64,000 bases of DNA from Boletus sp. NGJ (taxonomy: Eukaryota; Basidiomycota; Agaricomycetes; Boletales; Boletaceae): contig JAGTXK010000005.1 in assembly GCA_019096195.1 (NCBI GenBank), forward strand, positions 310,001-374,000, given 5' to 3'. Position 1 is the first letter of the stretch. Each line of letters begins with the position of its first letter. Below the pieces are notes generated by a model, which was not told the origin of the DNA, made no database searches, and saw only the letters and a program-made list of their open reading frames with translations. The translations under genes and the position numbers were made by a program. Shown here one piece after another: positions 1-63,200 of the stretch.

Positions 1-453
1 TTCGGTCCCTTTTGTGAAAATCATGTGTTCCGCACTTGATCTCTGAGTGAGAATTCCGACCACGCACGTCGAACACCGAGGTGGGGCCGCCAACATGGAT
101 AGCAGTTTCTAGGGAATAGCCACTCGATGCAAGTTCCGGCCATACCAGTGTTAGGGTTTCGTAACTACGGAGGTGACAAAGGACAGCTCGCTTCGGTTCG
201 GTAACAAAATGTTCCCGTCTTATCTTCAAGGGCTCGTGGCGGGTACGTTTCTATCTGGATATCAATCTACTAGTGTCGTGCATTTCGTTGTTATAATGTT
301 CCGCAAATGGTCACATGACCCTTTATTAATTACACCTGCTTTCCTCTACAGCCTGTTGGGCGGCGGTTTCTTGCAACGATCCGACGCGAAGGCCGTTTTC
401 CATCGGAAGGTCTCAAGTACAGTTACCTCAACCAACAAACGTACTCTGCAAAT
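1..453. other. Upstream region, no gene supported
   Basis: This stretch precedes the aldo-keto reductase start. A 104-codon open frame from 173 has no family resemblance and runs into the start of the recognised gene in another frame, so I treat the region as 5' flanking sequence and probable promoter. CpG is frequent, as in the rest of the first 6 kb. Confidence 0.5.
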
Positions 454-1798
454 ATGTCGCTTACCATCAAATCAACCGTCCAGTTGACGTCAGGTATTTT
501 AGAGTTCAATCCTGTTCACAATTCTTTACTGACGCCCAACGGTCCATGTAGGACATGCGATGCCCCTTCTCGGGTTTGGCGTGTACCAAAATTACAACAC
601 ACGACCGTCCGTGCTAACAGCCTTTGCAGCCGGTTATAGGTATGTTGATCGATCCGTTACGATCGCAGTCTTTCAGCACTTGATCACATCTGATTTGCCG
701 GTGCTCGTTAGACACGTCGATTCAGCCCAGGCGTACAAGAACGAAGCAGAAGTCGGTGAAGCTGTCAGAGAGAGTGGTCTCGAACGAAGCGACGTATTCA
801 TCAGTACGCAACCGTGCGTGTTAAAGCAAGGTTCATCACGACGCTTATCGCTCTGCATGCAAAAGCCACGAAATGTATTAGTAAAACGCATGGCTATGAC
901 AGCACCCTCGAAGGCGTCGACGAGTCGCTCGCAAGGTTTGGCTTCGGTAAGTGGGGATGAACGTTCCGATCACGTCTTCGGCAACTCACTTTTTGCTTCT
1001 CCGTCTATTGTTGTCGCTCAACAGATTATATTGACTTGTTTTTGATCCACGATCCTTTTTCTGGCACGGAACGACGCTTGGCCACCTACCGTGCCTTGCT
1101 AGATGCCCAAAAGGCAGGGAAAATCAGGACGGTCGGGGTGTCGAACTAGTCGGTTCTTTTAAATCTGCCTCTCTCGATTCCCTGATTAACTTTCTGCAAT
1201 CTAGTGGTGTCAAGCATCTCGAGGAAATAAAAACTGCGGGGTTGCAGATGCCCGCTGTGGACCAAATCGAGGCATGTTCCATTTTCCATTGTCATTTAAA
1301 TGAGGTAATTTATTTCCCTGTGCGTAGCTTCATCCTCTGTGCCAGCAGCGGCCTGTTGTGGATTATTGTCGAACCCACGAGATTGTTGTGCAAGCGTACT
1401 GCCCGATTCTGCGCGGCAAGACGGATAATCCAGTGATTCAAGCGATGGCACAGAAGGTCAGGACTATCATCGCCGCGCCGCACCAGCGCCCTCATGCCTT
1501 CCATCCCATCGATCTAGCACGGGCGAGATCCCGCTCAGATACTCATCAGATGGTCCTTGCAGAAAGGGTGCGTTTTTCATCTTACTTATCGATGTGGAAG
1601 AATTTTAGATCGTTCTGCACCATTTCTTCTTGTTCTTGCAGATTTGTCCCCCTTCCAAAGTCGGCTACTTCCAGTAGGATCAGATCCAACGCAGAGATAT
1701 ACGACTTTTCGCTCGGTCCAGAGGATATAACGCTTTTGGATGACCTTGACGTCGGGAAAGCAGGAGCTATCAGTTGGAACCCAGTTGATGCACCTTGA
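454..1798 (+). CDS. Aldo-keto reductase (AKR superfamily), nine exons
   Basis: NAD(P)H-dependent carbonyl reductase of the fungal 2,5-diketogluconate/xylose-reductase-like group; presumably cytosolic. My exon model is 454-493, 552-639, 712-813, 882-946, 1025-1148, 1205-1271, 1328-1456, 1518-1567 and 1642-1798. It sums to 822 bases (273 residues plus stop), a normal AKR length. Family motifs appear in order: GFGVY; YRHVDSAQAY (catalytic Asp and Tyr); HGYDSTLEG; DYIDLFLIHDP (catalytic His); RTVGVSN; VDQIELHPLCQQRPVV; a Tyr-rich YCPILRG; and the NADPH-phosphate site VPLPKSATSSRIRSN. All introns are GT-AG except 1272-1327, which starts GC. The catalytic Lys should fall next to the exon 3/4 junction, where my reading gives STQPKTHG; either the splice differs or the Lys is replaced. 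Start chosen as the first ATG that splices in frame. The specific substrate is unknown. Confidence 0.88.
1272..1327 (+). other. GC-AG intron in the aldo-keto reductase gene
   Basis: The exon ends in GAG, the donor is GCATGT and the acceptor is GCGTAG. Removing 1272-1327 joins DQIE directly to LHPLCQQRPVV, the conserved AKR strand and loop. No GT donor nearby gives this join. Confidence 0.75.
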
Positions 1799-2757
1799 AC
1801 TCCGATACGAATATTCCGTGATGGTTGCAAGGTCAGAAGTGTAAATTTATCCTGTTATATGCTTGGCTCTCTCGACTCCGGATCAGTGACACTGCAGCGA
1901 GGCGACATGTCGTAACAAGCTCGAAAAATGAACTTCATACACAATATTGTGTTACACCACTTTCTTTCTTCATTGTTCGTCAATAGAGTTGTATCAGCGG
2001 CGAGGATATCATCAATCAGCCAAAGCCTCGTGTCGGTGAGTAAGATAGATTAGAATTTTTTTTTCACGTACGTTTTTACCGTGAGGGGGGCCGCGGAAGA
2101 CGAGCCAGCGCGACCCTTGGGAGATCAAGTTGAAGTAAGGCTACGGGCCGTCGTGCTGCCACGTAAGGGAAAGGGTACCATTCGTGAAACATTGAACACT
2201 GGACCGGGCCCCGGTTGCGGTCCTCCGAGTCAATTCTTCCCTGGGTGTGATGTCTTACCTCCATCAAGGAGGCAGACCTTTCGACGGGGATACTACCAAT
2301 GCAATCGCCAAAGCGACTGTGATAGAAGTGGATACACGGAGCTCAATCAAGGACCCTCGTGCTGCCGCTAGATGTGCCTGCACCGAAACTTCATCACGCT
2401 GCTTGCCAGCCTCCCTGACCATCTCTCTCGCCATGAGTATAATTCCAGGGATGCTGTTGATGGGTTTCTCCTTGGTCATAACCACGACGGCTCGGAGCTT
2501 TGTGCAAAGTCATGATGTCGATGTTCGCAGTGTGTGTGTAGAGGTCGTCTACTAATTAGGCGACAGGAGGCAGCGTATCATGATGGTGCATGGGCTAAAA
2601 GGCTACAGTGGATCCTCGGACCGGATCGCCGAAAGTTCGGAGTGGCGGTGCAGAGTCTGTTGTTTGAAACACCTCGTTCGAGTCGTTCAGATTGAGACTC
2701 TCTGCTAAGCCATCTACCTCTCATCCTGCACATACCGCTCTCAGTGTATTAGTGAAA
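1799..2757. other. Intergenic or unresolved region between two host genes
   Basis: Several 60-100 codon frames overlap on both strands (for example + 2247-2555 and - 2264-2485), but none resembles a family I know. The - strand frame reads as a plausible soluble protein segment with many Lys/Glu and could be one exon of an unrecognised gene. I see no splice series that supports it. Confidence 0.4.
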
Positions 2758-3841
2758 ATGAACGTCCTGTCTCATTTTTGGGAGCTTGATGAACTGATTC
2801 AAGTCATATACCAAGGATTTGATCAATTTGTCGTCCTGTCCGAAGTTAGCGAATCTTCGTGGACCGTCCACCTCGGCTTGAAGGGACCCGAAGGCAGGTG
2901 GTGGCGCGGATCATGGTCAGCGCCGGATGTATCAAAGTTTATCGTTCGTTCCAGCGGTTTATTGGCACGTTCCGACACGTTGACAGCTGCTTTTCACCTA
3001 GGGTTCAACGTCGAGCTCCCAAATTCTGGCAAGTTTCGCTCACAACCTCTCCGAGGTGTTTGTGAACGGTGAGTTATGTGTCGGCGATTGGGTACCTGAC
3101 AAAGGCGCAAAAATAAACGTGAGCCTGATCTTGACTTTCTTTTGGTCCCACGCATTTGTCAATGAATGACCACCATGCTTAGCTTACGTTGGGACCTACG
3201 TCGAAAAAACCGGTACACATTCCTCTGGTGGAATTGTCCGCCAAGGAAGCAGCGTCTCGTGCGACGGCCATCCTCACTGCAGTATGAAACTTGGACTGTC
3301 CATTCCTGACCAGTGTGATGACAAATTTGACCAAAGATTGCCCTCCAAGCACAATCTCGCAAGTGTCGACTGAACCCACCATCGTTTTTTGCTCAGACTG
3401 CAACAACAACAGGACCATCCCGCACTAGATCAGGTGCGTTTGACAGACCGCAGAGACGTTTCGGAGGTGAAAACCCTTGCATCACTCCAAGTCACCCATG
3501 TACACCCTCCGAAGAAAGCGCGTGTCTCCGAGTCTGAGCCATTAGCACTGCCCCGAGCTGAAGACGAAACTGAAGTTGCTCAACGAAAAATCAAGTTATT
3601 AGAGGCAGAACTTGCACACGTCAAGGCAGCGAAAATGGCCAAATCAAAATCTCCTTTAAGCGATGCAGAGCCGAGTAGGTTACGAAGTCACGACGCCGCT
3701 TCGCCTGCTGACCTCCACGTATCTGGAATCCTCCAAACAGAACCATCAGTGTCTGTACGAACGAAAGGCGCATCGCTAGCTAATCCACACAAAAAAGCGC
3801 GCAAATATCAGACGGTGGAGTTTGAGAGTGACAACGACTAG
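2758..3841 (+). CDS. Probable XRCC4-like (XRCC4/XLF superfamily) end-joining factor
   Basis: XRCC4-type proteins scaffold DNA ligase IV in non-homologous end joining in the nucleus. Exon 1 (about 2758-2928) gives a head-domain pattern: FVVLSEVSESSWTVHLGL followed by GRWWRGSWSAPD, resembling the Trp-x-Gly-x-hydrophobic strand pair of XRCC4. Intron 2929-3001 then leads in phase 0 to exon 3002-3118 (LSEVFVNGELCVGDW, DKGAKIN). Intron 3119-3182 leads in phase 0 to an exon from 3183 with LTLGPTSKKPVHIPLVEL and SAKEAASRATAILTA. The last exon (about 3397-3841) has a predicted coiled coil (EVAQRKIKLLEAELAHVKAA), a Ser/Pro-rich linker and a basic-acidic tail ending KKARKYQTVEFESDND. The junction near 3282-3396 does not resolve in frame with standard sites, so an exon may be missed or the gene may be damaged. 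The family call rests on pattern memory, not on a search. Confidence 0.5.
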
Positions 3842-4251: not shown

Positions 4252-5979
4252 ATGTCCTACATTCCTCGTACTTTACCCGCTCAGGGAGATACCACCACTA
4301 ATGTTCTTGGCGTAGAGGCCATGTTTACACAGATATTGGGTGCGGTACAGAAATCGGTGCGCCAACAGTTTCTTTGCGGTCAAAGAACCTGGTCTTTAAC
4401 AAGGGGCCCATCCTAGCAAGCTGAGATATCCGAGCTTCGCCAAGAATGCGCAGACCTGAAACTCGCCAACGCGAGTCTCGAGAGACAAGTTAGAGAGGGC
4501 TTCAATGTATGTCCATCGCGGGCACAATTGTGATTCAGCCGACTGAACGACCCGTCGGCAGAACCACAACGTCAACGGAAGTCGCACCACTGCCTCCCCT
4601 GGCTCTGTGACGCCCATCCACGGGAGCCCTCAGCTTCGTGCAAAGTCCCCGTTTCTTTCTCCTCATCACATTCCCACCCTTTCGGCAGTTCCCCCTGCAC
4701 TTCTCGTTCCTTCTCCGCTTGGAGAGAATGCTGTAACTCCTATCTCATGTTCACAACGTGATATTCCAGGATTCTACGTCGTTATTCCCGCAGGAGGGGC
4801 TGGTACTCGCCTCTGGCCCTTGTCCCGAGAGGAACACCCAAAGTTCCTCCTGGATCTTACTTTGAAGGGGAGGTCTTTGATTCAAGCCACCTGGGATCGG
4901 CTGTTGCCCCTTTCTTCTGCGCTTCGTACGACGGTCGTCGCGGGGCCAGGTCACGTCAAGTCCATCCACGAACAATTGCCCGATCTCCTTCCTCACAACC
5001 TCTTTTGTGAGCCTGGGCCCAAGGATTCTATGGCAGCTATCGGTCTCGCAGCTGCCGTCCTCGCAAAGAGGGACCCCGATGCTATAATTGGATCCTTTGC
5101 CGCCGACCACATGATTTCTGGTGACGAGGCGTTTCTTTCGGCCGTTGCGGAGGCAGTCGAAGTAGCGAAGCAAGACTATCTCGTCACTATCGGCATTGCG
5201 CCGTCACACCCATCCACTGGATTTGGATACATCCGTCTCGGCGATAAGCTGGGTATCAAGCAGGCTCCAAACGCGAGATTGGTATCGAGCTTTAAGGAGA
5301 AGCCAGACGCCCGTACCGCTGCTGCATACATTGGCACGGGTAATTATCGATGGAATGCCGGCATGTTCGTGACCAGAGCGACATTGCTCATGGACCTCCT
5401 GAAGGATTATGAACCTGAGCTATACGATGGGCTTCAAAAGATCGCCAGCGTCTGGGCGGACGAAGAAAAACGTCAAGCGACGTTAGCTGAAGTGTGGCCT
5501 ACTCTCGAGAAAATCGCTATTGATAACGCTGTTGCGGAACCTGCTGCTGTTGAAGGCAAGGTGGCTGTCGTACCTGCGACTTTCGGTATGTTCCGTGGGG
5601 TTTAACAATCAAAAGAATACTTCTTTGACGTAATTTCTACCAGGTTGGGATGACGTCGGAGACTTCTCTTCTCTCGCGGATCTTCTACCCGCTGAATCCA
5701 ATCAACCTCGCGTACTTGGTGATGGCAGCCTGGGTACGTGTTCTGTTTCGTAATTGATGAGTCGCCACCAACATCCATTCCCCCGCAGTTCTCACCGAGC
5801 AGGTTGCTGGTGGGATTGTTGTCCCTGGGTCCGGACGACTGATCACATGTCTTGGAGTCGATGATCTGGTTATCGTTGACATGCCAGACACTCTCCTTGT
5901 CACAACGCGCGCGCGCTCTCAGGAAGTAAAACGCTTGGTGAAGAAATGTCGCGATGCTGGATGGAAAGCCTTGCTTTGA
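4252..5979 (+). CDS. Bacterial-type mannose-1-phosphate guanylyltransferase with coiled-coil N-terminal extension, five exons
   Basis: It should make GDP-mannose from mannose-1-phosphate and GTP in the cytosol. Exons are 4252-4356, 4417-4506, 4562-5585, 5644-5733 and 5789-5979: 1,500 bases, 499 residues plus stop, every junction GT-AG and in phase. Residues 1-65 include a Glu/Leu-rich coiled coil (EISELRQECADLKLANAS) and residues 66-134 are Pro/Ser/Thr-rich. The enzyme domain begins at about 136 with FYVVIPAGGAGTRLWPLSR (nucleotide-binding loop), then PKFLLDL, PKDSMAAIGLAAAVL, IIGSFAADHMI (metal site), FGYIRLG, FKEKPD, YRWNAGMF, IAIDNAVAEPA and TFGWDDVGDFSSL, the last formed only after intron 5586-5643 is removed. 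There is no in-frame ATG between 4562 and the enzyme core, so the extension is needed for a start. The layout matches actinobacterial ManC from memory, not the eukaryotic PSA1/GMPPB type. Confidence 0.85.
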
Positions 5980-13179: not shown

Positions 13180-14990
13180 TGCATTACTGGTTCAAATCCC
13201 TCTTGGACTCAGGAGTATCGCATACATTTATTGATCAGGACTATGTTACTTGTCACAATATTCCTTTTTATGACATTGGAAACCCAATTAAGATACATAA
13301 TGCAGATGGATCAGAAGGAGCTATCAGACTGATTCGTCATGCAGTAACACTAATCGTGGAAGTACAAGGACACTACGAAGTCATTGACACTTATATATCT
13401 AAACTTGGAATCCATTGAATGATCATTGGGTATGACTGGCTTTACTGCCATAATTCCGATATCAATTGGATAAAACAAACAATCTCTTTTCCTCATTGTA
13501 CATCATACTGTAAAGTTATGGGACTCAGACCTTCTTCTTCTTATACTCCAGTCAATCTATGTACTATCAAAGAAGGACTTAAAGAAAAAGTTCTGCTAAC
13601 TTATCATGAGTTTTTAGATGTTTTCTCAGAACAAGAATCTCAAAGAATATCCATAAGGAAACATTGGGATCATGCCATAGATCTCAAAGAAGACTTCTCT
13701 CCAAAGAAATGATGTGTTATTCCTCTTCTGGATATTGAAATAGAAGAAGTCAGGGCTTTCATCGAGAAAGAAGTAAAGAAGGGATATATCAAACCTTCAA
13801 AATCTCCACAAACATCTCCAGTCTTCTTTATTCCAAAAAAGGAAGGTAAAAAATGAATAGTAATGGATTACTGATATTTAAACGAAGGCACCATAAAGAA
13901 TTCCTATCTTCTTCCTCTTATTCTGCAACTAATTGACAGGCTTAAAAACGTGGACATGTTTACAGCAATGGATCTCTGATGGGGATTCAACAACATATGC
14001 ATCAAAGAAGGAGATGAATGGAAAGCAGTGTTTGTAATGCCCATCGGTGCTTATGAACCAACGGTAATGTATTTCGGACTTACGAACTCTCCCCCTACCT
14101 TTTAAACGATGATGAATGATATATTTAATGACATATATGCGATGGTGATTATTTATATCAACGATTGTATGGTATTTACTTCTGGAAAGTTTAAAGAAGA
14201 ACATGAGGAGGTTGTCAAGGAAGTTCTTTGTTGCTTGTGCGAGAATGACCTATATGTAAAACCAGAAAAGTGTATCTTCTTCATGGACAAGGTGGACTTT
14301 CTAGGAATGGTTGTATCTAAAAAGGGGGTAGAGATGCAGTCGAAGAAAGTGGCAGGGGTCATGAATTGGCCAGTTCCCACATGACTAAAGCAGCTCCAGG
14401 GATTCCTCAGCCTTTGTAATTATTATAGGAGATTCATAGAAGGCTTTGTGGAAATTGCACATCCCTTAAATGATCTTACCAAGAAAGATGTTCCATTCAA
14501 ATGGGGACCCAATCAACAACAAGCTTTTGAAAACTTAAAAGGAAAATTTACAGAAGCACCACTTCTTGCATATTCCAATCACGATCAAGAAGTGCATGTG
14601 AAAATTGATGCCTTGGACATTACAACAGGAGCTGTGCTCTCTACTCTATGTAAAGATGGTAATTGGTGACCAATCGCCTTTATTTCACATTCTTTTGATA
14701 GCGCAGAGCGCAACTATCCTATTTATGATAAAGAATTGCTTGCAGTAATTCGGGCGCTGGAAGAGTGGTGTTACTATTTAATAGGTCACGAAAGATTTGA
14801 AATTTGGACTGACCACAAGAACCTTGAATATTGGAAGAAATCACAAACTCTCAGTGGTCAACAAGCACACTGGCATGCACTCTTACAAGAATTCAACTAT
14901 TTCTTTGTTTATAAACCAGGATCTTCAAACAGTAGAGCTGATGCTTTATCTCAACAACCTGATCACGGTGACGCTGTGATTGATCACAAC
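13180..14990 (+). pseudogene. Protease, reverse transcriptase and RNase H region of the chromovirus (fossil)
   Basis: A retropepsin-like site (LLDSGVSHTFID) near 13,200 is followed by RT blocks at about 13,750-14,400 (a FTAMDL motif, a degraded YxDD box read as YINDCMVF, KCIFFMDKVDFLGMVV) and RNase H at about 14,480-14,960 (QQAFENLKG, WTDHKNLEYW, NSRADALSQQP). Reading is broken at several places. The order is that of the Ty3/gypsy family. Confidence 0.88.
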
Positions 14991-15099
14991 CAAAATGTTA
15001 CTGTTCTTCCTCCCTCTATTTTTATAAACAATGTTTCTCTTTCTTTTGACTTTTTTACGAAACTACAAAAAGAATCAAAATACCAAAGCATTGATGCTA

Positions 15100-16535
15100 T
15101 AAACAATTTCCTTTTCTTCTCTGATTTGAATATTTTCAAAAATGAAAAAGACAAAATCTTTATCCCAGAATCATTATGTACTGAACTCTTAACATTATGT
15201 CATGGCTCTCCTATTGCTGGTCATGAAGGACATTCAAAAACCATACATACTCTTTCTCAATATTTTTCGTGGCCAGGAGTCACAAAGGACATTAAAGAAT
15301 ACGTAGATCACTGCCAAGTGTGCACCCTCACGAAGGATAAGCAAAAAGCACTGGCAGGTAAAATTATACCATTACCTGTAGCAAAAAGACCATGAGAGGA
15401 TCTTTCAGTGGACTTTATAACTGGATTACCTCCATCACATTCATTTACAGCTATCTGCATAATTGTTGATTGATTTTCCAAAGAAGTCGTTTTTATCCCT
15501 ACATATGATACTCGTTCCTCCAAAGACTTAGCTATTTTATTCCGTGATCATGTCTGGTATACACATGGACTATTCTCTACACTTGTATCTAATTGAGGAC
15601 CCCAATTTGTTTTAGTGTTTACCCAAGAACTTTGCAAGTTACTTGGTGTTAAACAAAAAATATCTACAGCATATCACCTGCAAACAGATGGGCAAATAGA
15701 ATGCATAAACTGAGATCTTGAACAATATCTCCACACATATGCTGGAAAAAAGCAAAATGAATGGGTAGATTGGTTAAAATTGGCACAATTCTCCCACAAT
15801 AATACCATAACCACTGCCACTGGAGAAGTTCCTTTCAAGGTCACACGAAACTATGTGCCTCGCATGGGATTTGAAGGGAACCTTGTTGGCTTTGCAGGAG
15901 AAATAGGCCATAATCATAAAGAAATAGAAGAAGCGCTTAAAGCATCATGTGAGAGGATGATCACCTCTTCCGATAAAAAACAATCAGAAGCTCCCGAATA
16001 TTCTATTGGTCAGCAAGTCTGGCTATCTACCAATAAACTAAAACTTCCATATACAGTGAAGAAGTTAACACAGAAATGGATAGGACCATATGCAATGACT
16101 CAGATTCTATCAAATGCAGTCACACTCAAACTCCCTAATTCTGTTCATATTCATCCAACCGTGAACATCTTACATGTTAAACCATACTGAGAAACATTAC
16201 CTGATCAATCTAAATCTTGACCTGACGCCATTGAGATTGATGAAGAAGGAGAAGAACAGTTTGAAGTTGACTTCATCGCCACTTCCAGGATGAAGAATTG
16301 GAAGTTAGAATATTTAGTGCATTGGAAAGGATACAACAACACAGATCACACATGGGAATCAGATGAAATTATCAACACTGCCCCGAATGCAGTTAAAGAA
16401 TTCCATCATCTACATCCTTCCACACCATGCAAGCTTCACGGTTTATTCGCTGCTTCATTTGCATCTTTATTTTACCCTTATGAAAACTTCACACAAACTG
16501 AAAAAACCACAACTCACCTGGAACTCGAGTCCTAA
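15100..16535 (+). pseudogene. Integrase and chromodomain region of the chromovirus (fossil)
   Basis: An HHCC zinc-finger pattern (GHEGHSKTIH, DHCQVCTLTKD) lies near 15,220-15,340, followed by the integrase catalytic core to about 15,830 and a GPY/F-like block (WIGPYAMTQILSNAVTL) near 16,080. A C-terminal chromodomain (LEYLVHWKGYNNTDHTWE) near 16,300 places the element among chromoviruses, which the family is known to use for heterochromatin targeting. Broken. Confidence 0.88.
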
Positions 16536-22808: not shown

Positions 22809-24419
22809 AAGTGACTCCCAAAACTGTTCCAATACCTAACCCTAATGCAGTGCACGAAGCACACTGCAAACACCGTGGGAATGTCACTTGGCTTTGGTGG
22901 GACAAATAATAGTACATACCCTTGGCTACCTATGGGCGCTTGGATCGTGTGAGTTGATCTAGAGGAAGTGGAGATATAGCTATTTTAAAACAGCAACTAC
23001 ATTGGAACAGTTTTGGAACTTTTGATGTGAGCATTAGAATCTTTATGATATAAGGGAATAATTGCTGTTGTTTGGTGGTACAAACAAAGATATACATATA
23101 AATATCATGTCTGAGTCTAAAAATGTTCCCACACTTCTTGACTCTTAACCACTACCATCATGCGATCTTTCTCTGCCACTCAAAAAAACACCATCCTCTC
23201 TCAACTTGATTCTGGCCATTCCATCTGCTCTATTGCCTCTAGTACAGGTGTTGGCATTGCTACCATCTCTAGGCTTCATTCCAAGAAGTGTTCTGACCTT
23301 CAAAAGTCTGCTAGAGGCTGTCCATCAAAGCTTTCCTCTGTTAATATTCATCATGCTGTTTGCCTTATCTCCAGTAATAAGGCAGAGAATGCTGTTCAGG
23401 TCACCAAAGCTCTCTCCACTGTCACCAACCAGCCTCTCTATCCTAATACAGTTCATCATCATTTGAAAAAGATTGGTATGAAAGCCATAGTCAAGTTCAA
23501 ATGCCCACTACTCTCTGCCAAACATCGCAAGGCTCAGTTGGACTTTGCTTATGCTCATAAGGACTGGACTCTAGAGGACTGGAAGCAGGTGGTATGGCCT
23601 GATGAGACCAAAATCAATTGTCTTGGGTCAGATGGTCACAAATGGGCATGGAAAAAGCCAGGAGAGGGGCTTAGTGACAGATTAGTTGAGGGGACTTTGA
23701 AGTTTGGAGGGGGTCCTTTGATGTTGTGGGGCTGCATGGCTTGGGATGGGGTTGGCTATGCAACCAAGATTGATGGTAGGATGGATGGTGATCTCTACCT
23801 TCAAATTTTGAAGGATGAACTCCAGGATTCCTTGGAGTTCTATGATCTGAATCCTCCTGATGTTATCTTTCAACAAGATAATGACCCCAAGCATACTTGT
23901 AAAAAGGTCAAGAAGTGGCTGGAAGAGCAGGAATTTAGGACCATGGTATGGCCTGCACAGTCTCCTGACCTCAATCCCATAGAACATATCTGGCTTCACC
24001 TCAAAAGAAAGCTGGCAGACTATAAGGAGCCTTCTAAGGGAATAGAGGAGTTGTGGAGAAGAACTTAGGAGAAATGGAATGAGATATCAGCTGAGGTGTG
24101 TCAGGGATTGATTGAAAGCATGCCTAGGAGGGTTCAGGCAGTGCTTAAAGCCAAAGGAGGATATACCAAGTACTGATATATACCAAATACCCTTATGATA
24201 ATCAAAAGTTCCAAAACTGTTCTAATGTAGTTGCTGTTTTAAAATAGCCATATCTCCACTTCCTCTGGATCAAATTATATGATCCAAGCACCCATAGGTA
24301 GCCAAGGGTATGTACTATTATGTGTCCCACCAAAGCCAAGCGAAATCTCCATGGGTGTTTGCAGTGCACTTCATGCACTGCATCAGGGTTAGGTATTGAA
24401 ACAGTTTTGGAAGTCACTG
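22809..24419 (+). mobile_element. Tc1/mariner element A, 1,611 bp, TA target site
   Basis: The ends read AAGTGACTCCCAAAACTG and, inverted, CAGTGACTTCCAAAACTG, and are flanked by TA at 22807-22808 and 24420-24421. A subterminal CCTAACCCT block occurs at both ends. It is nearly identical in length and sequence to element C (39876-41486, opposite strand). Confidence 0.92.
23160..24176 (+). pseudogene. Tc1 transposase of element A, C-terminus cut by a stop
   Basis: 302 residues read from ATG 23160 to a TAG at 24066-24068. The frame then continues open to TGA at 24174 with the conserved tail (CQGLIESMPRRVQAVLKAKG). The paired helix-turn-helix N-terminus (TILSQLDSGHSICSIASSTG) is present. Catalytic acids are in VWPDETKIN, FQQDNDPKHT and SPDLNPIEHIW, with 34 residues between the second and third (DD34E). 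The stop lies after the last catalytic residue and removes about 36 residues. The same stop is in element C. Confidence 0.88.
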
Positions 24420-36872: not shown

Positions 36873-37194
36873 TATAGTGGCTCAAAAAAGTGTCCCAATG
36901 TTTGACTATTTTGCAAAGACTTGACATTTGCAAAAGAACCAAAAGGTATTAGCCCTAACCCTTGCTGGGCCATTGATAGCCCTAATCCTTGCCCTGAAGA
37001 TGAGCCCTTAGTCATGTGAGTTGGTTGTCATGGTACTGAGTTATAGCCATATTAAAAGGATATGTCATTGGGACACTTATTTGACCCTGATATTATCAAC
37101 TATCATTTAGTAAATAACATAAGGTTCTGATGGATGCTGTGCTTCAACCCTGTCTGATTATGTCACTTACATAACTCCAAATGGTATAAAGAGC

Positions 37195-37202
37195 AGAGAT
37201 AC
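37195..37202 (+). promoter_or_regulatory. TATA box upstream of the element B transposase
   Basis: TATAAAGA, 24 bases before the ATG at 37226. Elements F and G have ACATATATAAACCCC about 40 bases before theirs. Confidence 0.5.
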
Positions 37203-37225
37203 CATTCAGCCAACCCTACTTCATT

Positions 37226-38242
37226 ATGAAATCCACTCCCTCCTCTGCTAGAGCCAATATTCTTTTTCTCTCTGAATCTGGCCTTTCTACTAGGCAAATA
37301 TCATTCCAAACTGGTCTGGGGAAGTCTACTGTGGCCAGGGTTATCAAGGAGATCCACCCAGGCAAGGAAAACATCAAATTAGGATGTCCTTCTAAACTCT
37401 CTCCTACTGATAAAAGGAGAATTGTCTCTAGTATTACCTCTGGCAAAGTTGAAAATGCTGTCCAGGCTACCCATCTCATCAATTCTGCTCTCTCTTCTCC
37501 TGTCTCTGCTCAAACTGTTAGGAATGTTCTCAAGTCTGCATCTCTCAAGGCTGTGGTCAAGAAAAAGAAGCCACTCTTGTCTGTGAAGCATAGGCAACAT
37601 AGGCTAGCCTTTGCTCTCAAGCACCAACATTGGACTGTGGAGGACTGGACTAGGGTTATATGGTCAGATGAAACCAAGATCAACAGGATTGGGTCAGATG
37701 GAAGGAAGTATGTATGGAAATTGGCAGGAAAGTCTTTGCAAGACATGGAAGTTCAGGGAACAGTAAAGTTTGGAGGAGGTTCCTTGATGGTTTGGGGATG
37801 CATGAGTTGGAGTGGAGTGGGGATTCTTGCAGAGGTTGAAGGGAGGATGAATGCTGAGCAGTATGTCTCCATTTTGGAGGATAATCTGCTTCCTTCCATG
37901 GAAAATTCTGGAATTCCTAAGGAGAGCATTATCTTTCAACAAGATAATGATCCCAAGCACACCTCTAAAAGAGCCAAGGAGTGGCTGGAATCTCAAGGGA
38001 TCAAGCTTCTTGACTGGCCAGCACAATCTCCAGACCTTAATCCCATTGAACATCTCTGGCAAATCCTCAAAAAAAAACTCAATAGCTATACAACACCACC
38101 AAAAGGAGTATGGGAGCTTTGGGAGAGAATTGAAGTGGAGTGGGGGAAGATAGAGGTTGAGGAGTGTCAAGGATTGATAGAGAGTATGCCTAGAAGACTA
38201 GAGGCAGTGATAAAAGCAAAGGGAGGGCATACAAAGTGCTAA
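37226..38242 (+). CDS. Tc1-type transposase, 338 residues, apparently intact
   Basis: Cut-and-paste transposase of the Tc1 branch (DD34E). N-terminal paired-like helix-turn-helix domains span residues 1-120 (FLSESGLSTRQISFQTGLGK; GCPSKLSPTDKRRIV). The catalytic core has Asp in WSDETKINRIGSDG, Asp in FQQDNDPKHTSKRA and Glu in SPDLNPIEHLW, with exactly 34 residues between the last two. The C-terminus ends ESMPRRLEAVIKAKGGHTKC, as in the other copies. No intron, stop or frameshift is seen. A TATA box lies just upstream. The copy could encode active enzyme and may also act on relatives with similar ends. Confidence 0.93.
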   Translation: MKSTPSSARANILFLSESGLSTRQISFQTGLGKSTVARVIKEIHPGKENIKLGCPSKLSPTDKRRIVSSITSGKVENAVQATHLINSALSSPVSAQTVRNVLKSASLKAVVKKKKPLLSVKHRQHRLAFALKHQHWTVEDWTRVIWSDETKINRIGSDGRKYVWKLAGKSLQDMEVQGTVKFGGGSLMVWGCMSWSGVGILAEVEGRMNAEQYVSILEDNLLPSMENSGIPKESIIFQQDNDPKHTSKRAKEWLESQGIKLLDWPAQSPDLNPIEHLWQILKKKLNSYTTPPKGVWELWERIEVEWGKIEVEECQGLIESMPRRLEAVIKAKGGHTKC

Positions 38243-39875: not shown

Positions 39876-41486
39876 CGTGACTTCCAAAACTGTTTCAATA
39901 CCTAACCCTGATGCAGTGCACTGAAGTGCACTGCAAACACCCATGGAGATTTCGCTTGGCTTTGGTGGGACACATAATAGTACATACCCTTGGCTACCTA
40001 TGGGTGCTTGGATCATATAATTTGATCCAGAGGAAGTGGAGATATGGCTATTTTAAAACAGCAACTACATTAGAACAGTTTTGGAACTTTTGATTATCAT
40101 AAGGGTATTTGGTATATATCAGTACTTGGTATATCCTCCTTTGGCTTTAAGCACTGCCTGAACCCTCCTAGGCATGCTTTCAATCAATCCCTGACACACC
40201 TCAGCTGATATCTCATTCCATTTCTCCTAAGTTCTTCTCCACAACTCCTCTATTCCCTTAGAAGGCTCCTTATAGTCTGCCAGCTTTCTTTTGAGGTGAA
40301 GCCAGATATGTTCTATGGGATTGAGGTCAGGAGACTGTGCAGGCCATACCATGGTCCTAAATTCCTGCTCTTCCAGCCACTTCTTGACCTTTTTACAAGT
40401 ATGCTTGGGGTCATTATCTTGTTGAAAGATAACATCAGGAGGATTCAGATCATAGAACTCCAAGGAATCCTGGAGTTCATCCTTCAAAATTTGAAGGTAG
40501 AGATCACCATCCATCCTACCATCAATCTTGGTTGCATAGCCAACCCCATCCCAAGCCATGCAGCCCCACAACATCAAAGGACCCCCTCCAAACTTCAAAG
40601 TCCCCTCAACTAATCTGTCACTAAGCCCCTCTCCTGGCTTTTTCCATGCCCATTTGTGACCATCTGACCCAAGACAATTGATTTTGGTCTCATCAGGCCA
40701 TACCACCTGCTTCCAGTCCTCTAGAGTCCAGTTCTTATAAGCATAAGCAAAGTCCAACTGAGCCTTGCAATGTTTGGCAGAGAGTAGTGGGCATTTGAAC
40801 TTGACTATGGCTTTCATACCAATCTTTTTCAAATGATGATGAACTGTATTAGGATAGAGAGGCTGGTTGGTGACAGTGGAGAGAGCTTTGGTGACCTGAA
40901 CAGCATTCTCTGCCTTATTACTGGAGATAAGGCAAACAGCATGATGAATATTAACAGAGGAAAGCTTTGATGGACAGCCTCTAGCAGACTTTTGAAGGTC
41001 AGAACACTTCTTGGAATGAAGCCTAGAGATGGTAGCAATGCCAACACCTGTACTAGAGGCAATAGAGCAGATGGAATGGCCAGAATCAAGTTGAGAGAGG
41101 ATGGTGTTTTTTTGAGTGGCAGAGAAAGATCGTATGATGGTAGTGGTTAAGAGTCAAGAAGTGTGGGAACATTTTTAGACTCAGACATGATATTTATATG
41201 TATATCTTTGTTTGTACCACCAAACAACAGCAATTATTCCCTTATATCATAAAGATTCTAATGCTCACATCAAAAGTTCCAAAACTGTTCCAATGTAGTT
41301 GCTGTTTTAAAATAGCTATATCTCCACTTCCTCTAGATCAACTCACACGATCCAAGCGCCCATAGGTAGCCAATGGTATGTACTATTATTTGTCCCACCA
41401 AAGCCAAGTGACATTCCCACGGTGTTTGCAGTGTGCTTCGTGCACTGCATTAGGGTTAGGTATTGAAACAGTTTTGGGAGTCACTG
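39876..41486 (-). mobile_element. Tc1/mariner element C, 1,611 bp, near-identical to element A
   Basis: The ends are CGTGACTTCCAAAACTG and, inverted, CAGTGACTCCCAAAACTG, between TA at 39874-39875 and 41487-41488. Same length as element A, with very few differences. Inserted in the Ty3/gypsy fossil. Confidence 0.92.
40119..41135 (-). pseudogene. Tc1 transposase of element C, start codon and C-terminus lost
   Basis: The codon matching the element A start is ATA (41133-41135). The rest reads as in A through the HTH region and the DD34E core (VWPDETKIN, FQQDNDPKHT, LNPIEHIW) to the same TAG stop (40227-40229), then on to about 40119. The shared stop means it predates the split of A and C. Confidence 0.85.
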
Positions 41487-53383: not shown

Positions 53384-54992
53384 CAGTGGCTCAAAAAACT
53401 GTCCGCATGTTTGGTCATTTTTCACTAAACGTGTTATTCCCCAATACCCCCTAACCCTTACCCTAACATATAGGTGTATGCAATAAAGCACTGGCCCTTG
53501 GCTTTCTATCCATCAAGGTTTTAAGACATATGAATAAGAATTGATGAACTGGCAGCCATTTCAAAACAATGACTCATTCGGACAGTTTTTTGACTCTAAG
53601 TTTTGATTACATATATTGGACCCTAGCATGCTGTAATATGATTACATACATTTGGTAAGGCTTCTATTATGTCACCATTATGTAACTGAGTGTCAGACAA
53701 CATATATAAACCCCATCATTCCATGTTTATTTTCCCACCATCACCATAAAACCCATTTCCATCTCTCAAAGAAACAATATCATCTCTCTCTCCTCTCATG
53801 GGCTTTCCTCTAGGAAAATCTCTGCCCAAACTGGCCTAGGGAAGTCTACAGTATGCCAAGTGCTTCAGGAACTCCAGCCAGAGAAGACTAGGCTTCTTGG
53901 TGGCTGTCCTTCCAAGCTTACCTCTACCAACAAAAGAGCTATTGTCCAGCAAATTATTACTAGCAAGGCCAGGAATGCTGTTCATGCTGCCCAATACATC
54001 AATACCATTATTGATACCCCTGTCTATCCTCAGACTGTTAGAAATACTCTCAAGGAAGCCTCCTTAAAGGCTGTGGTAAAGAAGAAAAAGCCACTGCTTT
54101 CTAGTGGTCACAAGAAAAGAAGATTAGCCTTTGCTCTCAAGTACCAGCATTGGACTGTGAAGGACTGGAAGAGAGTTATATGGTCAGATGAGACCAAGAT
54201 AAATAGGATTGGGTCAGATGGGCAAGAGTATGTGTGGAAAAAGAAAGGAGAGGGGCTAATTGCTAGAGAGATCCAAGGCACAGTCAAGTTTGGAGGAGGT
54301 TCACTGATGGTATGGGGCTGCATAGGGTGGAATGGAGTGGGGATTTTGAGTGAGGTGGAGGGGAGAATGGATGCTGAACAGTATGTGGCCATATTGGAGC
54401 AGGGGTTGCTGCAAAGCATGGAGGAATCTGGAATTCCAGAAGATGACATTATCTTTCAACAAGATAATGATCCCAAGCATACCTCTAAAAGAGCCCAAAG
54501 ATGGTTTGAAGAGCAAGGAATCAAGCTTCTGGACTGGCCTGCACAATCTCCAGACCTTAATCCCATTGAACATACTTGGAATCACCTCAAGATATGCCTC
54601 TCAGGTTATGAAAATGCTCCTACAGGTATTCATCAATTGTGGGAAAGAGTAGTGGAGCAGTGGGGAAAGATTGATGAGGAACAGTGTCAGAAATGGATAG
54701 AAAGTATGCCTAGAAGGATTGAAGCAGTTATCAAGGCCAAAGGAGCTCATACCAAGTACTAGATACCTAGATAAATTTAGAGTCAAAAAACTGTCCGAAT
54801 GAGTCATTGTTTTGAAATGGCTGCCAGTTCATCAATTCTTATTCATATGTCTTAAAACCTTGGTGGATAGAAAGCCAAGGGTCAGTGCTTTATTTCATAC
54901 ACCTATATGTTAGGGTAAGGGTTAGGGGTTATTGGGAGATAACGCGTTTAGTGAGAAATGACCAAACATGTGGACAGTTTTTTGAGCCACTG
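53384..54992 (+). mobile_element. Tc1/mariner element F, 1,609 bp, TA target site
   Basis: The ends are CAGTGGCTCAAAAAACTGTC on both sides (inverted), between TA at 53382-53383 and 54993-54994. The subterminal block CCCCTAACCCTTACCCTAAC lies about 70 bases from the left end, with its mirror at the right. Very close to element G. It lies just downstream of the Plavaka-like C-terminal coding region. Confidence 0.93.
53746..54762 (+). pseudogene. Tc1 transposase of element F, start codon changed to ATA
   Basis: The 338-codon frame of element G is open here from 53746, but its first codon is ATA instead of ATG; the next in-frame ATG would remove part of the HTH domain. The core is intact: IWSDETKINRIGSDG, FQQDNDPKHTSKRAQ and LNPIEHTW (DD34E), ending IEAVIKAKGAHTKY. 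Apart from the start, it looks capable of encoding enzyme. Confidence 0.9.
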
Positions 54993-60215: not shown

Positions 60216-63200
60216 ATGCCCTCTAACAAATGTGCTGCTTCTCCAACAGAATCCAATAATAACATGTTCTCAAAATGTGTCAAGATGACCTCAAAATACA
60301 TGTCAAAGATGCTAAAGAAAGGCAAAAAATGCAACAGGAAGTAAGTTTCATTACTGACTATTGTTTCTGAGGCTGATCTCATTAGGAATTGTGTACCTGG
60401 CAATGATTACATGTCTGACTCTGATTCCTCAGTAGGGTCAGAGCACAACTCTGAGTCAGATATTGAGTGTGGGATCCCCCTTAAAGATATGAAGAGCATA
60501 GGACGTACTATCACACACTGCTATGACATGTTCTGTGATGTTGAGAAAGCAGTCCATCTAGCGATGCTCTTGAAGCAAGCAGAGCAAGGATGGGGCAATT
60601 CTGAGGATGAAGACATGCACTGTGCTAGGAAGCAAGCTCTTAAGTGAATGTAAGTGTTTAAATTCATTTTCCATGCTCATCACACAAACCAGGTAGCAGT
60701 ATGCCACAAATGTTGGCTTGTTACAAGAAGGTCTACTATATTCTCATCTACGAGATTCCAAGCATCAAGATGCTCATCAACAATGCTGTGTGTGCATCAA
60801 CACTCAAGAAAATCCTCAAAAAGGTATGTACTGTATATGTGCATATATTGTGGTGTTAAGAACAGGCTGAAGCATTTTTAGATTAACAAAGCTATTAATG
60901 AGACAAGGAGCAGTGACTCTGCCTGACTGTGCGAGAAACTAACAACATACTGTGGCTCAAAAAACTGTCTGCATGTTTGGTCATTTTTCACTAAACGCAT
61001 TATTCCCCAATAACCCCTAACCCTTACAGGTGTATGAAATAAAGCACTGACTCTTGGCTTTCTATCCATCAAGGTTTTAAGACATATGAATAGGAATTGA
61101 TGAACTGGCAGCCATTTCAGAACAATGACTCATTTAGACAGTTTTTTGACTCTAAGTTTTGATTATATATATTGGACCCTAGCATGCTGTAATATGATTA
61201 CATACATTTGGTATGGCTTCTATTATGTCACCATTATGTAACTGAGTGTCAGACAACATATATAAACCCCATCATTCCATGTTTATTTTTCCACCATCAC
61301 CATGAAACCCATTTCCATCTCTCAAAGAAACAATATCATCTCTCTCTCCTCTCATGGGCTTTCCTCTAGGAAAATCTCTGCCCAAACTGGCCTAGGGAAG
61401 TCTATAGTATGCCAAGTGCTTCAGGAACTCCAGCCAGAGAAGACTAGGCTTCTTGGTGGCTGTCCTTCCAAGCTTACCTCTATCAACAAAAGAGCTATTG
61501 TCCAGCAAATTATTACTGGCAAGGCCAGGAATGCTGTTCATGCTGCCCAATACATCAATACCATTATTGATACCCCTGTCTGTCCTCAGACTGTTAGAAA
61601 TACTCTCAAGGAAGCCTCCTTAAAGCCTGTGGTAAAGAAGAAAAAGCCACTGCTTTCTAGTGGTCACAAGAAAAGAAGATTAGCCTTTGCTCTCAAGTAC
61701 CAGCATTGGACTGTGGAGGACTGGAAGAGAGTTATATGGTCAGATGAGATCAAGATCAATAGGATTGGGTCAGATGGGCAAGAGTATGTGTGGAAAAAGA
61801 AAGCAGAGGGGCTAATTGCTAGAGAGGTCCAAGGCACAGTCAAATTTGGAGGAGGTTCACTGATGGTATGGGGCTGCATAGGGTGGAATGGAGTGGGGAT
61901 TTTGAGTGAGGTGGAGGGGAGAATGGATGCTGAACAGTATGTGGCCATATTGGAGCAGGGGTTGCTGCAAAGCATGGAGGAATCTGGAATTCCAGAAGAT
62001 GACATTATCCTTCAACAAGATAATGATCCCAAGCATATCTCTAAAAGAGCCCAAAGATGGTTTGAAGAGCAAGAAATCAAGCTTCTGGACTGGCCTGCAC
62101 AATCTCCAGACCTTAATCCCATTGAACATACTTGGAATCACCTCAAGAGATGCCTCTCAGGTTATGAAAATGCTTCTATAGGTGTTCATCAATTGTGGGA
62201 AAGAGTAGTGGAGCAGTGGGGAAAGATTGATGAGGAACAGTGTCAGAAATGGATAGAAAGTATGCCTAGAAGAATTGAAGCAGTTATCAAGGCCAAAGGA
62301 GCTCATACCAAGTACTAGATACCTAGATAAATTTAGAGTCAAAAAACTGTCCAAATGAGTCATTGTTTTGAAATGGCTGCCAGTTCATCAATTCTTATTC
62401 ATATGTCTTAAAACCTTGATGGATAGAAAGCCAAGGGTCAGTGCTTTATTTCATACACCTATATGTTAGGGTAAGGGTTAGTGGTTATTGGGGAATAATG
62501 CGTTTAGTGAAAAATGACCAAACATGCAGACAGTTTTTTGAGCCACTGTATACTCCTCTGCATTCTCATTGAATGCCATCACATACTTGACTGGGCAGAG
62601 ATATCTGGCCAGCTGTGGATGATTAAGTCCCAAGCTCTGATTTGGAGGTGCTAGAGTTGATGGGAGGCTTTATGTTGTTGACTTTCAGGTTTTGAAGGAC
62701 ATACATGTATATTCATTTGGTCATAATGATTAGGCAGTGCTAACTGAAATTGAACAAAATAGAACTTGGAAGAAACTCGAGAATGGCAAAATTGACATGT
62801 CAGCTACTGAACTGCCCTGCTTTCCTGTGGGAGGACAATGGAGCTAAGTATGACAATGATGGAGACATTTACTCGGGCCTTTTCCATGGATTTTATCTTG
62901 AATGGGTGTGTCTCATTGTTTTTCATGGTCGTTACAGCTACATACTAGCTCCTACCCCACCAGGTCGCTAGGCATATTTTTACAGGTCCATCTACGGCCC
63001 ACGGTGAGGACTCGTGTGGGGTACGTTCATGCAATGCGGTCCTTCACCGTATGGATAAGGTGGAGGCAGCACACATCGCTTATGCCGCAGTCCTGGTAAG
63101 TTTCATAGACACTGCCAATGTCGTGCTAGATTAATGTTCACATTACAGGCTCGCTTTGGAATCAGCTTGCAGTCATGTTGGTCGGAGAAAGACTGATTGC

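Follow-up and report, generated by a model that had tools for sequence, protein, structure and literature searches.

Which enzyme supplies GDP-mannose in this Boletus, the usual eukaryotic one or one acquired from bacteria? N-glycosylation, O-mannosylation, GPI anchors and wall mannan all draw on GDP-mannose. Genes that pass from bacteria to fungi are generally regarded as bringing in accessory metabolism, and replacement of an essential eukaryotic enzyme by a bacterial one would be unusual. A gene in the window (by which we mean the whole stretch of 64,000 nucleotides analysed here) raised the question. The preliminary description had read it as an actinobacterial-looking GDP-mannose pyrophosphorylase with fungal introns, captured behind a pair of host exons and providing a second source of GDP-mannose. 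We consider it likely that a ManC gene from an actinobacterium gained introns and an N-terminus in the fungus and functionally replaced the eukaryotic PSA1.

A spliced gene for a ManC-type enzyme

Translation of the five exons (Table 1) yielded 1500 nt, corresponding to 499 amino acids and a stop, with no internal stop codon; this agrees with the 500 codons originally counted. All four introns are of the GT-AG type, confirming that an otherwise prokaryotic gene is interrupted by introns. The WDDVGDF motif had been thought to form only after splicing. It is in fact contiguous, lying wholly in exon 4, and what splicing joins is the domain itself and the preceding Gly codon, which straddles the junction of exons 3 and 4.

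Table 1. Exons and introns of the fungal ManC gene, in window coordinates
Feature	Position	Strand	Description	Basis
Exon 1	4252..4356	+	ATG context ACCACCATG; residues 1-35 (1-31 with donor 4345)	Spliced translation, sequence read
Intron 1	4357..4416	+	GTGCGC...TAG, 60 bp; alternative donor 4345 (GTACAG, 72 bp), in frame	
Exon 2	4417..4506	+	Residues 36-65, probable leucine-zipper segment	Spliced translation, heptad shuffle test
Intron 2	4507..4561	+	GTATGT...CAG, 55 bp	
Exon 3, first part	4562..4771	+	Residues 66-135, S/T-P-rich linker, 7 S/T-P sites, no Met	
Exon 3, remainder	4772..5585	+	Start of ManC catalytic domain (GGAGTRLWPLSR, FAADH, EKP, NAGMF)	Pfam PF00483, PDB alignments
Intron 3	5586..5643	+	GTATGT...CAG, 58 bp	
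Exon 4	5644..5733	+	WDDVGDF (5646-5666), end of transferase domain	Spliced translation, Pfam
Intron 4	5734..5788	+	GTACGT...CAG, 55 bp	
Exon 5	5789..5979	+	ManC_GMP_beta-helix (PF22640, residues 445-489), C-terminal; stop	Spliced translation, Pfam

Judged by its domains, the encoded protein belongs to the bacterial ManC type of mannose-1-phosphate guanylyltransferase and not to the eukaryotic PSA1/GMPPB type. Pfam detected an NTP_transferase domain (PF00483) at residues 139-421, with 125.2 bits against a cut-off of 21.2 (E=4.3e-36), followed by the ManC_GMP_beta-helix (PF22640), with 41 bits against a cut-off of 27 (E=1.8e-10). The closest solved relatives by sequence were the Thermus and Thermotoga proteins 2cu2 (E=3.1e-45) and 2x5s (E=9.9e-45). 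These align over 354 and 352 query residues respectively, including the core motifs GGxGxRxWPLS...PK, ADH, EKP, WN-GxF and W-D-G, which we take to have the catalytic roles usual for GMP enzymes. Both are much more distant than the actinobacterial proteins described below, and their chains lack the N-terminal extension. Together, the two domains and the aligned motifs bear out the bacterial layout first proposed. ManC-type enzymes convert GTP and mannose-1-phosphate to GDP-mannose and pyrophosphate, the same reaction as that of PSA1/GMPPB, and the transferase and beta-helix domains of the fungal protein should make GDP-mannose from these two substrates.

In a Pfam comparison of four further proteins, PF00483 and PF22640 were both present in a Sanguibacter segment, a Deinococcus protein and an Escherichia coli piece. 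The Sanguibacter segment, the one actinobacterial segment scanned, thus has the same two domains as the fungal ManC. The bifunctional GMP/PMI enzymes (TIGR01479; E. coli cpsB) share the transferase and beta-helix domains with it; the E. coli piece additionally carries the MannoseP_isomer domain (PF01050), which the fungal protein lacks. A bifunctional assignment was rejected on that absence and on a TIGR01479 score of 241 bits against a cut-off of 372.95. Yeast PSA1, the fourth protein, has GMPPB_C (PF25087) and no PF22640. The PSA1/GMPPB group (yeast PSA1, human 7d72, Arabidopsis VTC1 7x8j) shares a distant NTP_transferase domain with the fungal ManC. Membership of that group was rejected in turn: PF25087 is absent from the fungal protein, and BLASTP of the latter against yeast PSA1 produced no significant match, the best alignment covering 15 residues at E=0.036.

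Search for the usual eukaryotic enzyme in the same genome

If the bacterial-type enzyme is an addition, a eukaryotic one should be encoded elsewhere. We searched the fungus's own assembly (32,776,125 bases in 141 contigs, and possibly incomplete) loosely in six frames. The catalytic part of ManC had a single match, the window gene itself. The single match to yeast PSA1 (E=1.34, 26% identity) is noise. We also joined three proteins into one query: yeast SEC53, human GMPPB and, for human GMPPA, the N-terminal 190 residues. Its GMPPB and partial GMPPA portions gave no match at E up to 10, whereas its SEC53 portion found five exon pieces at 52-87% identity, the shortest of 23 residues. Because GMPPA was queried with part of the human protein, its absence is less certain than that of PSA1/GMPPB. 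The PF00483 profile found the window gene alone in this genome and no eukaryotic-type enzyme. It likewise failed to show the gamma and epsilon subunits of eIF2B, which are expected in any eukaryote and should carry NTP_transferase-like domains; silence of the profile is therefore weak evidence, and it is the two PSA1-type protein queries that carry weight.

The control genes were all found. The UDPGP family was detected at three places: two, on contig C3, we take for UGP1-like genes, and the third, more distant and on contig C130, for UAP1. The two on C3 (C3:485099-486478 and C3:499289-500858) lie about 13 kb apart in opposite orientation, and in the first each of the two UDPGP matches is interrupted by a stop, perhaps where an intron was read as coding sequence. 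PMM, in a gene with small exons, and type I PMI were also present. All seven housekeeping controls (ACT1, TPI1, PGK1, POL30, ENO1, FBA1 and TUB2) were recovered, a result that flatters the search, as all of these genes are strongly conserved, with actin and tubulin belonging to multi-gene families. The two steps preceding GDP-mannose, PMI and PMM, are thus encoded, and the usual last step was not found in the assembly searched. These results lend no support to the idea of a second source: ManC is probably the sole GDP-mannose source of the fungus, a gap in the assembly being possible.

The reading of ManC as a genuine but accessory enzyme, serving a special polysaccharide or stage while a normal PSA1 sits elsewhere in the genome, strikes us as unlikely, though it deserves serious attention. 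The assembly may be incomplete. A study covering 491 fungal taxa and their nucleotide-sugar enzymes (PMC8092308), in its accessible part, reports two GMPP clades, splits C and D, from every major fungal lineage. A further clade there, split E, is confined to Dikarya, sits on a very long branch and has no characterised member, as would fit an additional enzyme. Loss in one class is still compatible with the distribution of splits C and D, and split E may itself be the fungal ManC kind. Against an accessory role stand the two PSA1-type queries, without significant match in a search that detected SEC53 down to 23 residues, and the presence of every other gene tested (UDPGP, PMM, PMI and housekeeping). 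It is further opposed by another Boletales genome, that of Coniophora olivacea, which as far as the accessible text of PMC5689174 goes misses only KOG1322, GDP-mannose pyrophosphorylase, from the CEGMA set at a completeness of 99.78%.

The N-terminal extension

The catalytic part of the fungal ManC begins at residue 136. In-frame Met codons occur at residues 1, 24, 222, 249, 333, 342 and 468, residue 222 being already inside the catalytic domain, and from the stop at 4544-4546 onwards the enzyme frame has no ATG before residue 222. As Met 1 and Met 24 are the only ones ahead of the domain, the upstream exons are needed for an AUG start. Both earlier claims on this point, that the enzyme alone has no start codon and that the open frame requires the extension, were therefore upheld.

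Alternatively, the locus could hold two genes, a small coiled-coil gene that ends upstream of 4562 and a ManC gene whose non-AUG start codon lies within 4562-4771. Some room for this is left by the donor of intron 1, which may be 4357 or 4345 (both keep the frame, giving products of 499 or 495 amino acids, and the sequence alone prefers neither), and by the modest zipper signal described below. The missing ATG and the in-frame joining of exons 1 to 3 through GT-AG introns make such a division of the locus quite improbable.

The extension had been described as a coiled coil. Exon 2 places I39, L42, C46, L49, N53, L56 and V60 at heptad a/d positions. Taken alone, it has 5 of 8 such positions in ILVMF in its best register, which does not exceed chance (shuffle p=0.074); over residues 23-65 the count is 8 of 12 (p=0.010). 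An Asn at an 'a' position, here N53, is also a feature of dimeric zippers. A short leucine zipper is thus probable, and the coiled coil survives in this reduced form. The 70-residue linker that follows contains more S/T-P sites than expected from shuffling (p=0.0023). We suggest that the zipper would help the enzyme to dimerise and that the linker could act as a phosphorylation-controlled tether by which proline-directed kinases would regulate the enzyme or position it.

The proposed capture behind a host exon pair received no support from the genome, where a second copy of the N-terminal 135 residues was not found (next match, E=1.89); capture of host exons is in consequence indistinguishable from exons newly formed in place.

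Actinobacterial affinity of the catalytic part

In a collection of bacterial and archaeal genomes, at least 576 relatives were confirmed among 590 pattern matches, and the best 80 were kept. By title, 79 of these best 80 are actinobacterial, with some genera assigned to the phylum on our own assumption, and the remaining one is a MAG titled Proteobacteria. The 80 loci share 48-59% identity with the fungal catalytic part; in the stand-alone ManC proteins of Actinomycetota, such as those of Sanguibacter and Nakamurella, this similarity spans the whole of it. Plasmid records gave 454 matches, all below 60% identity; among the 40 listed, the best was from Arthrobacter (52.5%), followed by six from Deinococcus (37-42%) and by Escherichia coli (at most 37%). 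One stretch in viral contigs matched the pattern, and none was confirmed as a relative. We also drew 159 genomes from the phylum to which Nakamurella belongs, one Nakamurella genome included, and 13 of them matched at 1e-20: five had an enzyme of the fungal-ManC type (54-58% identity) and eight a more distant one (34-40%). The affinity is therefore to one subfamily and is not a property of all enzymes of this phylum.

For phylogeny, thinning at 76% identity left 65 of 104 rows, the Proteobacteria-titled MAG being among those dropped. The fungal row grouped with 49 actinobacterial rows in a clade supported at 100/100 and set off by a branch of 0.95, to the exclusion of all other bacteria sampled; the fungal terminal branch measured 0.72. 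The outgroup part of the tree is unreliable because of long rows (Thermus, Thermotoga, L115 and L122), and no branch has the outgroup on one side. Grouping of the fungal ManC with Deinococcus was rejected (AU p=0.0002). Placement of the fungus outside the actinobacterial clade was not rejected (AU p=0.34), the base of the clade being without resolution. For the putative transfer, the donor phylum is thus well supported, and the donor lineage and strict nesting are not supported to that degree. The protein search and phylogeny of the catalytic part that the preliminary description had proposed as a check hence agree with the actinobacterial affinity it had suggested.

That AU result, which does not place the fungal row inside Actinomycetota, would be compatible with a ManC of early eukaryotes kept in some fungi with no actinobacterial transfer. 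Such old inheritance is nevertheless very improbable, given a fully supported clade common to the fungus and actinobacterial rows only, and an identity of 48-59% to actinobacterial rows against at most 42% for other bacteria among the matches listed.

GC content at third codon positions (GC3) is 0.534 in the fungal catalytic part, whereas the 80 bacterial loci have a median of 0.936 (range 0.55-1.00), indicating that the gene is not a recent bacterial copy. Bacterial contamination, or a decayed insertion with no working fungal gene, has nothing beyond the bacterial similarity in its favour and is scarcely credible in view of the four short introns with an intact spliced frame, the GC3 value, the conserved core motifs, and a contig of at least 374 kb whose analysed window carries retroelement and Tc1-type transposase sequences. 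These transposable elements, the short GT-AG introns and the small exons of PMM are in keeping with a fungal host.

Two of the bacterial records merit a remark. The Proteobacteria-titled MAG (BP9.bin99) has an actinobacterial-type ManC with 55% identity to the fungal one, as has an Actinomycetes MAG of the same name series (BP9.bin26); misbinning or local transfer is possible. In Paraoerskovia sediminicola the ManC open frame continues for about 400 codons past the usual end, possibly through fusion or a frame error.

A proposed history and its implications

We propose that a fungal ancestor received a ManC gene from an actinobacterium. The gene would have gained spliceosomal introns, drifted in codon usage from its bacterial relatives, and acquired 135 N-terminal residues comprising the short leucine zipper and the S/T-P-rich linker. 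It would have functionally replaced PSA1, as the main or only GDP-mannose source of the fungus. The contrast with Actinomycetota is one of form: the bacterial gene is a single open frame, mostly rich in GC3, whereas the fungal one has four introns and the extra N-terminal residues.

A precedent is the GH13_32 alpha-amylase, which according to the accessible part of PMC3584928 passed from an actinobacterium to an ancestor of Agaricomycotina, where it later acquired many introns. Donor phylum and later intron gain are common to both cases; the amylase was an added starch-degrading enzyme, whereas ManC would replace an essential housekeeping gene. The open-access PMC literature, in the portions available, yielded no description of an actinobacterial ManC transfer to fungi, which does not prove its absence in print. 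A survey of prokaryote-to-fungus transfers (PMC11708051) has neither 'mannose' nor 'guanylyltransferase' in its main text, so far as that is accessible. The accessible part of PMC9605614 lists a 'ManC' of Ganoderma lucidum as down-regulated; this may be mere database naming, and we did not count it as evidence.

Perhaps many Agaricomycetes have undergone the same replacement. For the broader proposal we see an even chance: that a large mushroom-forming group has lost PSA1/GMPPB and its partner GMPPA and relies on one actinobacterial ManC with a dimerising, phospho-regulated N-terminal tail. In the human complex, GDP-mannose is subject to GMPPA-dependent feedback; were the proposal true, such feedback would be absent or rebuilt in these fungi. 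ManC replacement would also account for KOG1322 as the one CEGMA gene missing from Coniophora olivacea (PMC5689174, in the part accessible) and would make KOG1322 questionable as a universal eukaryotic core marker. If it holds across the mushroom-forming group, it would perhaps explain the long-branched split E.

Genomic neighbourhood

Upstream of ManC, window positions 155-1798 contain aldo/keto reductase exons, with PF00248 below the cut-off in the frame at 533-1045 and above it in that at 961-1149. Just upstream of ManC, at 2758-3841, lies a gene whose N-terminal part has no match and whose charged C-terminus looks like a coiled coil. Pfam gave no match for its frames 2668-3072 and 3374-3841, and we found no convincing splicing; its layout may resemble that of XRCC4/XLF/PAXX. 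The rest of the window, from 6200 to 64000, is transposon-dense. Pfam identified a retroelement RNase H/integrase frame at 14670-15395 and Tc1-type transposases at 23142-24068 and 37190-38242; by eye, the list of open reading frames contains similar transposase frames at 53710-54762 and 61266-62318 and, on the minus strand, at 40227-41153.
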